Assembly (NCBI GenBank): GCA_007845355.1
Contig: SDRQ01000006.1
Coordinates: 1-38,506, forward strand
Source of the DNA: TM7 phylum sp. oral taxon 352
GTDB taxonomy: Bacteria > Patescibacteriota > Saccharimonadia > Saccharimonadales > Saccharimonadaceae
Direction: 5' to 3'
DNA length: 38,506 nt
In this document: positions 7,945 to 12,585 of the stretch, piece by piece
Layout of the letters: every line of letters begins with the position of its first letter
How positions within the stretch are numbered: position 1 is the stretch's first letter
Translations under genes and position numbers: made by a program
The notes under the pieces: generated by a model
Told to the model about the DNA's origin: nothing
What the model saw: the letters and a program-made list of their open reading frames with translations, nothing else
Database searches by the model: none

Positions 7945-8347
7945 TGGTGGAGCTGCCGGGTACTGCCCCCGGGTCCAACTGGTATCACAACATCCGTCTA
8001 CGAGCATAGGCTTATCTAAATTTATTTAATAACGCTACTCGGATTTAGAATAAACCAAGAAAACCGAGTCTCGTTACGTAGTAAAAGTCCTATATATCCG
8101 CTACTTCCAAATATATAGCTAGCAACATAGATATAACACCCTTAGATATTGACTGTTGCCACAATACAAGGATGATCGCTAAAAATTAGGCAGCGATTGG
8201 CGCAAAGACCATCTTAGGAGCGAAAGCGCTCGCTACGAATGACTTTGCTTTTGCAACAAAGTTTGCATCTAAAAATATACGTTACGCGTATCGTCGGCTC
8301 GCAGAATGTCATGATAAGGTCCAATTGTCGAAAGCTATATCAGCCCC
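7945..8347 (-). ncRNA. ssrA: Transfer-messenger RNA (tmRNA)
   Basis: This 403-nt RNA rescues stalled ribosomes and tags incomplete proteins. The 5' GGGGCUG pairs with the 3' CAGCUCC ahead of ACCA, the standard 7-bp tRNA-like acceptor stem. A 5-bp T stem CCGGG/CCCGG lies next to it. The tag frame starts with resume codon GCA at 8264-8266, just after a UUAGAU context like the E. coli one, and ends with UAA at 8186-8188. It encodes 26 residues beginning ANFVAKAKSF and ending FAPIAA, much longer than the 10 codons of E. coli. The UAA lies inside a helix loop (AUCGCU/AGCGAU). The T loop reads GGCAGUA rather than UUCRANY. A TATAAT at 8362-8367 is a plausible -10, and a terminator follows. Confidence 0.93.
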
Positions 8348-10723: not shown

Positions 10724-11065
10724 ATGCGAGTAAAACGAGGAGTTGCCGCACGTGCTAAGCACAAAAAAATCTTAAAAGCAGCTGAGGGAATGCAACATAA
10801 TCGCACCAGAAGTTTTCGTCTTGCAAAACAAGGTGTTATTAGGGCTCTACAGTACGCTTACCGCGATCGCCGAAACAAGAAGCGCGATCTACGCGGTCTA
10901 TGGATTACCCGAATCAATGCAGCCGCTCGACAAGAAGGCACAACTTACGGCAAACTTATAGCCTCTATGAAATCTAAAAACATTGAGATTGATAGAAAAA
11001 TATTAGCAGAATTGGCAGTTAACGAGCCAAAAGCTTTCGCTGAAATAGTAAAAGCTAGTCTATAA
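10724..11065 (+). CDS. rplT: 50S ribosomal protein L20
   Basis: A 113-aa basic protein: [22 protein letters not shown], then [31 protein letters not shown] (residues about 30-61), the conserved L20 core, and [16 protein letters not shown]. Length and sequence match the family. L20 binds 23S rRNA early in 50S assembly and represses its own operon in other bacteria. It is the last gene of infC-rpmI-rplT, closed by the hairpin at 11086-11118. Confidence 0.95.
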
Positions 11066-11085
11066 CAGGATAAAACCACCAATAT

Positions 11086-11118
11086 AAAACACCCTGCATA
11101 ATGTCAGGGTGTTTTATT
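11086..11118. terminator. Bidirectional terminator between rplT and rnpB
   Basis: AAAACACCCTG (11086-11096) pairs with CAGGGTGTTTT (11105-11115), an 11-bp stem. T residues follow on the plus strand and TTTT lies within the stem on the minus strand, so it can end both rplT and rnpB transcripts. Confidence 0.75.
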
Positions 11119-11457
11119 CATAGTCTGCTTATAAGCCGGGTTCTGTCTAGGGCAATCATCTATCTAGTTTGCTTGTTGCCAAACAAATCAAGCGGTTATC
11201 GATCTGCGGACGGATAATCCTATTTGCAAATCTCCTTGCAGCCGACAGGGTTTACCTCTCGTCTATGTCGCCATAGACGACTGTGGGCTCTTACCCCACT
11301 CGTTTCACCTTTTCCCTCGTATATAAAATACGAAGGTAGTTTCGTTTCTGTGGCACTTTCCCTAGAGTTGCCTCCGGTCGCCGTTAACGACTGTCGTATC
11401 CTTCGCTGCCCGGACTTTCCTCTTAAGTATAACTTAAGCGATTGCCTAACAGACTAC
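11117..11457 (-). ncRNA. rnpB: RNase P RNA (bacterial type A-like)
   Basis: The catalytic RNA of RNase P, which matures tRNA 5' ends. The minus strand shows the invariant 5' GAGGAAAGUCCGGGC and 3' ACAGAACCCGGCUUAUAAG blocks plus GUGCCACAGAAA and GGUAAACCC. P1 forms from UAGUCUG (11450-11456) and CAGACUA (11121-11127), which fixes the ends; length is about 341 nt. An extended -10 TGCTATAAT (11465-11473) predicts a start near 11457-11458. The L15 region (GGAUUAUC...GAUAACC) seems to lack the GGU that binds tRNA CCA, although the tRNAs here encode CCA. Confidence 0.95.
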
Positions 11458-11464
11458 ATGATAT

Positions 11465-11473
11465 ATTATAGCA
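11465..11473 (-). promoter_or_regulatory. Extended -10 (TGCTATAAT) of rnpB
   Basis: TATAAT at 11465-11470 on the minus strand with TGC before it. The +1 falls at 11457-11458, immediately before helix P1. Confidence 0.6.
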
Positions 11474-11475
11474 CT

Positions 11476-11625
11476 AAACCCTAGACTTGTCTGTGGGCGC
11501 TAGATATTCCCCGCATAAATGCAAGGTGGGTGCTCGCAACTTATTGCCACGACAATAAATCATTAAAGCTCCCTATCATATGATGTTAGGAAAATCATAC
11601 GCGCCCACGGATAAATCCAGGGTAT
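11476..11625 (-). ncRNA. 6S RNA-like candidate
   Basis: The roughly 150 nt between the M50 protease gene and rnpB folds into one long rod. CCCUGGAUUU-A-UC-C-GUGGGCGC at the 5' end pairs with the mirror segment ending ...AAGUCUAGGG at the 3' end (11479-11500), about 20 bp with two 1x1 mismatches. Inside are a large bubble with small hairpins (CCUA/UAGG; CCUUGCAU/AUGCGGGG) and an apical stem UUAUUG/CAAUAA. A TATAAT at 11632-11637 predicts +1 at 11625, right at the base of the stem. A long closing stem, central bubble and apical stem are the architecture of 6S RNA, which binds RNA polymerase holoenzyme; GCACCCACCUUG also recalls some 6S sequences. Family assignment is inference. Confidence 0.5.
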
Positions 11626-11631
11626 GCTCCT

Positions 11632-11637
11632 ATTATA
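11632..11637 (-). promoter_or_regulatory. -10 box of 6S-like RNA
   Basis: TATAAT on the minus strand, overlapping the last codons of the M50 protease gene. Normal spacing puts +1 at 11625, matching the start of the long helix. Confidence 0.55.
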
Positions 11638-12277
11638 CACCAAATATATTCATAAATACACGCAAAATTGCCCGAATACAGCCCGACATAACCTGCCCAA
11701 TTACATCAGAAAACAGTACAACTATAATCATCACCAAAAGAACGCCGTTTTGCTCAATTTTTTGCATAACACCCCTGATACCATCCGGCGCTACGGCATA
11801 TAATATTCTAGATCCGTCCAGAGGTGGAATTGGTAGCATATTAAAAACAAAAAAACCCAGATTTACCGATATAGCAGTAGAAATAATCAGTCCAAATATC
11901 GTAGGCTGTACTGCCCCAGCATTATTAATAACGCCACTAAACACTCCGACGCCGAACACAATAAAGGCGATTACTAAATTAGTAATTGGGCCAGAAAGAG
12001 CAACAAGAGTCGCCCCCCAATCGCCAAAACGGACTCTATTTGGATTAAACGGAACAGGCTTAGCTCCTCCGAAAACTGGAGCATGCAACACCACCATAAT
12101 CAAAGGAAGCAAAATAGTCATCACAGGATCGATATGTCTTATGGGATTAAGTGTCAATCTCCCCTCTTCTTTTGCAGTATTATCGCCCAGTGCATACCCC
12201 ATAAAAGCATGCATAGCCTCATGAATGGTCATAGACAGCAATATGACAGTCAAAACTATTATTATTTCTAAAATCAT
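11633..12277 (-). CDS. Site-2 protease family (M50B) intramembrane zinc metalloprotease
   Basis: A 214-aa protein with four to six membrane helices. The zinc site is HEAMH near residues 19-23 in the first helix, and the third ligand is the Asp of FNMLPIPPLDGSRIL near residue 153; both are family hallmarks. Known: S2P proteases cut membrane-embedded substrates such as anti-sigma factors. It is a short form without a PDZ domain. It is divergent from rpmB. A TGCTATAAT extended -10 sits so that the ATG is at +2, so the mRNA should be leaderless. The 6S-like RNA promoter overlaps its 3' end. Confidence 0.88.
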   Translation of the reverse strand: MILEIIIVLTVILLSMTIHEAMHAFMGYALGDNTAKEEGRLTLNPIRHIDPVMTILLPLIMVVLHAPVFGGAKPVPFNPNRVRFGDWGATLVALSGPITNLVIAFIVFGVGVFSGVINNAGAVQPTIFGLIISTAISVNLGFFVFNMLPIPPLDGSRILYAVAPDGIRGVMQKIEQNGVLLVMIIVVLFSDVIGQVMSGCIRAILRVFMNIFGV

Positions 12278-12284
12278 AAGTGTT

Positions 12285-12293
12285 ATTATAGCA
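12285..12293 (-). promoter_or_regulatory. Extended -10 (TGCTATAAT) for leaderless M50 protease
   Basis: TATAAT occupies 12285-12290 (minus), +1 is 12278, and the A of the ATG is 12277. TAGTCA lies 17 bp upstream as a partial -35. Confidence 0.6.
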
Positions 12294-12306
12294 TCAATAC
12301 GTAATC

Positions 12307-12335
12307 TTGACTAATTACACAAATGTCGCTACAAT
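12307..12335 (+). promoter_or_regulatory. Promoter of rpmB (TTGACT-17-TACAAT)
   Basis: TTGACT (12307-12312) and TACAAT (12330-12335) are 17 bp apart. The start near 12342 gives a leader of about 34 nt carrying GAGAGTGG before the ATG at 12376. Confidence 0.7.
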
Positions 12336-12375
12336 AATAAGGATTGTTATTAATAATAAAGTAAAGAGAGTGGAA

Positions 12376-12585
12376 ATGGCATCACGATGTGATTTAACAG
12401 GCAAAGGAAAGCAGTATGGCAACAACGTCAGCTTCTCCCTGCGCCGCACTAAGCGTGTTTTCAAACCAAACCTTCAGAAGAAGACTTTTGTTGTTGACGG
12501 TCAAAAAATTACCATGACTTTAAGCACGAAAGCTATTCGCACCCTGAAGAAAAAAGGTATTTTGAGCGCAGCTGCTAATAAGTAA
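12376..12585 (+). CDS. rpmB: 50S ribosomal protein L28
   Basis: A 69-aa basic protein: MASRCDLTGKGKQYGNNVS, then RTKRVFKPNLQKKTF, the L28 signature, at the usual length of 60-78 residues. The frame is open further upstream to 12307, but that part contains the promoter and does not look like L28; the GAGTGG site 6 nt before ATG 12376 decides the start. It is a single-gene unit, with the terminator at 12611-12640. Confidence 0.93.
   Translation: MASRCDLTGKGKQYGNNVSFSLRRTKRVFKPNLQKKTFVVDGQKITMTLSTKAIRTLKKKGILSAAANK

Follow-up and report, generated by a model that had tools for sequence, protein, structure and literature searches.

6S RNA is a small RNA that throttles bacterial RNA polymerase. 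In the Escherichia coli RNA, pRNA synthesis begins at U44. The 3' strand of the P2 helix of E. coli 6S is freed during pRNA synthesis and folds into a 3' hairpin; in the 6S-1 RNA of Bacillus subtilis, where the pRNA starts at nucleotide 40, the 3' hairpin exists already in the free RNA, and a collapse helix forms afterwards (PMC8876501). The B. subtilis pRNA has the sequence 5'-GUUCGGUCAAAACUA (PMC12005410). A further 6S-like rod is Ms1 of the actinobacteria, which binds the core RNA polymerase and is described as structurally related to 6S (PMC9130861).

Here we describe a 153-nt minus-strand stretch, situated between an M50 peptidase gene and rnpB, that carries a candidate 6S gene. It lies in the window, by which we mean the whole 38,506-nt stretch of Saccharibacterial DNA analysed, and belongs to a draft assembly of 636 kb in 38 contigs. 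We put at about 93% the probability that the stretch is a single Saccharibacterial 6S gene with its own promoter, whose RNA would bind the polymerase holoenzyme and be released through pRNA synthesis.

The locus and the predicted fold of the RNA

The predicted transcript of the 6S (ssrS) gene, some 150 nt in length (11474-11625, minus strand), is preceded by the M50 peptidase gene (11633-12277, minus strand; PF02163, E 6.4e-10) and followed by rnpB, encoding class A RNase P RNA (11116-11457, minus strand; RF00010, 268.1 bits). The sequence TATAAT at 11637-11632 on the minus strand provides a -10 box, which has counterparts upstream of most homologues, and the A seven bases on is 11625, in agreement with the preliminary description, which had the RNA start exactly at a promoter +1. 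This box includes the TAA with which the M50 gene ends (11635-11633), a case of extremely compact gene packing. At the other end, the RNA had been said to stop before the rnpB promoter. The statement is accurate to a few bases, the closing stem ending at 11478 and the extended -10 element of rnpB, TGCTATAAT (11465-11473, minus strand, recognised from the sequence and a promoter scan), beginning at 11473. However, a -35-like hexamer at 11493-11488, which the promoter scan pairs with this -10, falls within the RNA's 3' strand; the 6S gene therefore adjoins the rnpB promoter and overlaps it in part.

Read on the minus strand, positions 11626-11474 give a folding energy of -63.6 kcal/mol, compared with -37.1 +/- 4.2 kcal/mol for dinucleotide shuffles (z -6.3), none of the 200 shuffles being as good. 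Since any long inverted repeat folds well on both strands, the plus strand of the same stretch gives a similar result (z -6.1), and folding energy alone therefore cannot tell the strands apart. The gene is assigned to the minus strand by the Rfam alignment, together with the promoter, synteny and the relatives. The rod of about 150 nt with an apical hairpin in the preliminary description, which gave no strand, corresponds to this minus-strand fold, and the closing stem, estimated there at about 20 bp, comprises 21 bp in three blocks (11 + 2 + 8).

Three parts make up the predicted architecture: a closing stem with interruptions, a central region bearing two short hairpins, and the apical arm. 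In the closing stem, a 5' strand at 11601-11623 pairs with a 3' strand at 11478-11500 (both minus strand), after which most relatives have a T run; in the window this run, at 11473-11478, is reduced to TTTAG where the rnpB promoter abuts. The 5' central-bubble hairpin (11578-11600, minus strand) holds the predicted pRNA start region, UUUCCUAAC, in its loop, and the 3' central-bubble hairpin, CCUUGCA-UUUA-UGCGGGG, occupies 11509-11526 (minus strand). Between them is the apical arm, GGGAGC...GCACCC with a CCGUGG-type tip (11528-11573, minus strand). An alternative, canonical 6S pairing is available in the P2 helix, whose 5' strand, GAUUUUCC (11589-11596, minus strand), can pair with 11503-11511; the Rfam alignment pairs the same region. 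The predicted minimum-energy fold has local hairpins in place of an open bubble, and enforcing P2 costs 3.6 kcal/mol (-59.7 against -63.3 kcal/mol for the two-hairpin fold).

Matches to the Rfam 6S model and to models built from relatives

Searched with the Rfam 6S covariance model, RF00013, as had been proposed from the outset, the locus is aligned over the full length of the model (positions 1-187 on 11626-11474) with 31.1 bits, below the gathering score of 46.4. A single match of this strength proves little by itself, so that the relatives have to decide. Other full-length alignments were obtained in L009 (45.8 bits), L023, L019, L013, L008 and L004. A strict genome-wide search of 149 genomes of the order matched 11 genomes, none of them above the cut-off, and a search across the phylum matched 22 of 287, three of them above it (60.2, 56.3 and 55.4 bits); the window's own match is not significant genome-wide, and the window's genome appears in neither of these whole-genome match lists. 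The core GGGAGC ... GCACCCACCU-GG is common to the clade RNAs and the Rfam 6S consensus.

A DNA search of 60 related genomes revealed homologues in 24 besides the window's own. Model R1, a covariance model made from DNA-similarity homologues of the window with a hand-set structure, found the RNA at full length in 165 of 198 genomes of the order, spanning more than 30 family groups. Nearly all of these 165 have a single R1 match; one genome of the order, G214, has two 6S matches on different contigs (C9:3406-3555 and C39:1149-1287), which represent either a second copy or contamination. A wider alignment, A3, and from it a widened model, R2, were built from 81 loci found in the R1, DNA and RF00013 searches, and R2 found the RNA in 115 of 287 genomes sampled across the phylum. 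The window itself scores 146.1 bits with R1 and 128.5 bits with R2 (E 3.4e-28), the runner-up to the R2 match in the window having 9.0 bits.

All 11 RF00013 matches in the order (149 genomes) coincide with R1 matches. Outside the order, the 18 RF00013 loci that were retrieved, among them the three above the cut-off, are all matched at full length by R2 at the same coordinates (E 9e-14 to 0.003). In genomes of about 1 Mb, two models that share no source thus place the RNA within a few bases of each other. The clade model is narrow and does not recognise E. coli 6S, so the link to the textbook RNA runs through the Rfam model and intermediate members. On these matches, the predicted 6S gene is conserved across the Saccharibacteria and present elsewhere in the same phylum.

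Covariation and competing helices

With MAFFT and RNAalifold the closing stem was misaligned and only partly recovered, and we therefore relied on an alignment-free arm-swap test and on covariance-model alignments. For 24 RNAs, duplexes of a stem's own arms have a mean energy of -29.3 kcal/mol, against -16.1 kcal/mol for swapped arms, and none of 100,000 permutations was as good. In A1, an alignment of 24 trimmed and oriented homologues made without reference to structure, the proportion of cells that pair is 90.3%, with a covariation score of 0.397, compared with 0.195 for shuffled and at most 0.133 for slid alignments. Both-sided changes are seen in A3 at 34 of 37 pairs, and at all seven pairs of the apical tip, A3 being fitted to the structure so that its counts lean towards it and are weaker evidence than A1. 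The preliminary description had staked its reading on covariation in the stem, and this is found both in the arm-swap test and in the A1 score. The long closing stem, central bubble and apical arm that characterise the 6S family are thus all present, with covariation.

The individual helices were examined by comparing segments, instead of columns, with their own and with swapped partners in 80 homologues. This gave z -9.9 for P2 (the 5' bubble with the GGGGAAUAUC-type strand), -11.9 for the 3' bubble hairpin and -10.7 for the 5' bubble hairpin, while control segment pairs gave +0.7 and +3.6. A weak analogue of the B. subtilis collapse helix, formed by the distal 5' bubble and the P2 3' strand, has z -4.1. 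Because the 3' strand of P2 is also that of the 3' hairpin, these two helices are mutually exclusive; P2 competes with the 5' bubble hairpin as well. With a shared 3' strand, covariation in both helices and energies 3.6 kcal/mol apart, the potential for rearrangement between P2 and the bubble hairpins is evident, and the comparisons show that P2 and the 3' hairpin, exclusive as they are, are both maintained by selection. The pair matches the known 6S release switch. Within the window's own family there is little variation in P2 or the 5' hairpin; their support is therefore drawn mostly from differences between families, which may reflect few independent events.

Promoter, 3' end and gene order in relatives

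Of 80 homologues, 73 have a -10 box in the 26 nt upstream, as against 21% of shuffles; it usually precedes model position 1 by 3-5 nt. A T run (at least four in 6 nt) marks the 3' end in 59 of 80 loci. In about 77 of 81 loci the RNA is immediately preceded by the M50 gene, encoded on the same strand, and in about 43 of 81 there is a tRNA-Pro gene no more than 320 nt downstream, likewise on this strand. The position next to rnpB, as given in the preliminary description, is real in the window and is not general, because most relatives have tRNA-Pro, a NUDIX-RNase H gene or both between the RNA and rnpB. The NUDIX-RNase H gene encodes a fusion protein of about 288 residues and lies between 6S/tRNA-Pro and rnpB at about 1740-2640 in L003, 1665-2544 in L004 and 1630-2510 in L010. 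Neither of these intervening genes is present in the gap of the window or of a 98%-identical relative, L002, and the direct contact is for this reason probably the result of a local deletion. The window genome has two tRNA-Pro-like genes at other sites.

This gene order bears on whether the structure works as a free RNA at all. A leader or processing signal of rnpB, or a 3' untranslated region or terminator of the M50 mRNA, would lie on the same strand between the two genes, as this stretch does, and could overlap the rnpB promoter and lack a good T run, as it does in the window. We consider such a cis element very improbable. The same structure recurs in most relatives despite the genes that separate it from rnpB, it has a conserved -10 box of its own, and in L028 and L030 no M50 gene was found beside the RNA, yet the RNA is present. 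Moreover, its core matches that of 6S, for which a leader would have no need.

Predicted pRNA and proposed mechanism

Nucleotide 44 of the sequence in L117 is a U, and the RF00013 alignment puts E. coli U44 one base before C11585 of the window, which is nucleotide 41 of the RNA. From the alignments to E. coli 6S and to the B. subtilis pRNA, this C (11585, minus strand) is the predicted template base for the first pRNA nucleotide, giving, by analogy, a pRNA of 5'-GUUAGGAAAAUCAU... (5'-GUUAGGAAAAUCAUACG). Most of the 81 homologues have UCCUAAC, UCCUGAAU or UCUGAAU at the start site, from which a purine pRNA start is predicted throughout.

We envisage that the RNA is transcribed from a -10 promoter of its own, located where the M50 gene ends, as the conserved box suggests. 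As a member of the 6S family, the RNA would mimic an open promoter with the central bubble of its rod, bind the housekeeping holoenzyme and keep it inactive. When nucleotides are plentiful, the polymerase would copy the 5' strand of the bubble from near C41 into the short pRNA; this would invade P2 (GAUUUUCC/GGGGAAUAUC), and the freed 3' strand would form the 3' hairpin (CCUUGC/GCGGGG), upon which the RNA would be released. The order of these release events is borrowed from E. coli and B. subtilis; for the 6S RNA of the window, transcription, polymerase binding and pRNA synthesis are inferred.

The shape alone would also fit an RNA that binds core polymerase as Ms1 does, and not the holoenzyme, since Ms1 is described as structurally related to 6S (PMC9130861). 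Against this, a permissive Rfam scan of 11000-12400, taken up to E 10, lists 6S and no Ms1-type family, and the relatives conserve the pRNA-start motif and the P2/3'-hairpin switch expected of a 6S RNA that is released by pRNA synthesis; we judge an Ms1-like function to have only a slight chance of being correct. A chance inverted repeat or a degenerate repeat, on either strand, would account for the good folding of both strands and for a single RF00013 match below the cut-off, and is ruled out by the comparative data, namely one copy per genome in most of the order, with covariation and synteny.

For the 6S gene itself, homology to 6S RNA is, on sequence comparison, beyond reasonable doubt, because the two independent covariance models converge, with three loci above the Rfam cut-off, every stem covaries and gene order is conserved. 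The identification in the preliminary description is therefore upheld, and the RNA is apparently a previously undescribed member of a known family.

Comparison with known 6S-type RNAs

Like E. coli-type 6S (RF00013), the RNA is the product of a single gene and has a closing stem, P2, central bubble and apical arm in the same order; it shares the core CACCU...GG in the 3' bubble, and the 3' strand of P2 can switch into the 3' bubble hairpin. It differs in its length, about 150 nt as against 183 nt in E. coli, in that most clade members fall below the Rfam cut-off, and in the covarying 5' bubble hairpin of the clade and the weaker P2 of the window's own family. With B. subtilis 6S-1 it shares a 3' bubble hairpin that is predicted already in the free RNA, the collapse-helix analogue and the pRNA start motif, CCGAAC (nucleotide 40) in B. 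subtilis and CCUAAC (nucleotide 41) in the window. Unlike the 5' bubble hairpin of 6S-1, which is predicted and unconfirmed by probing (PMC8876501), that of the clade is conserved by covariation.

Sigma factors, annotation and significance

The Patescibacteria (CPR), which account for a large share of bacterial diversity, are host-attached and have very small genomes, and the shutdown and restart of their transcription are little understood. Our results suggest that 6S regulation has been retained across the Saccharibacteria and much of the phylum. Genus mates of the window organism have one Sigma70_r2 protein each, and the window genome's assembly, which is 85% complete, shows none. If such a protein is the sole sigma70 factor, 6S would restrain transcription in general rather than switch between sigma factors. 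More tentatively, and at somewhat under even odds, we propose that the Patescibacterial RNAs form a branch of 6S of their own. In it, a conserved 5' bubble hairpin, incompatible with P2, would hold the pRNA start in its loop, obliging the free RNA to refold before it can mimic a promoter; in a genus with one detectable sigma70 factor, such an RNA would act as a global brake and not as a sigma selector. A cultured Saccharibacterium would allow the function of 6S and its pRNA to be tested in an organism with an apparently single sigma70 factor.

Annotation has a corresponding gap: the Rfam cut-off admits 3 of 287 genomes, against 115 of 287 with a clade-aware model, and the order (149 genomes) lies entirely below it. 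A clade model would close this gap. The Saccharibacterial 6S RNA is apparently unreported; papers under open licences on 6S in CPR, Saccharibacteria, Patescibacteria or TM7, or on Saccharibacterial small RNA, report no such RNA, a literature scope that makes this weak evidence of novelty.

Other features of the neighbourhood

At 11083-11121, where rnpB and the L20 gene converge, a strong hairpin, AAAACACCCTG...CAGGGTGTTTT, lies between the two genes and resembles a bidirectional terminator serving both. An Rfam match of the microRNA family mir-374 to this hairpin is below the cut-off and was judged to be due to chance. Around the IF3-L35-L20 genes, tmRNA (7945-8347) and the RNase P and 6S RNAs (11116-11625) are encoded within 3.7 kb, all on the minus strand.
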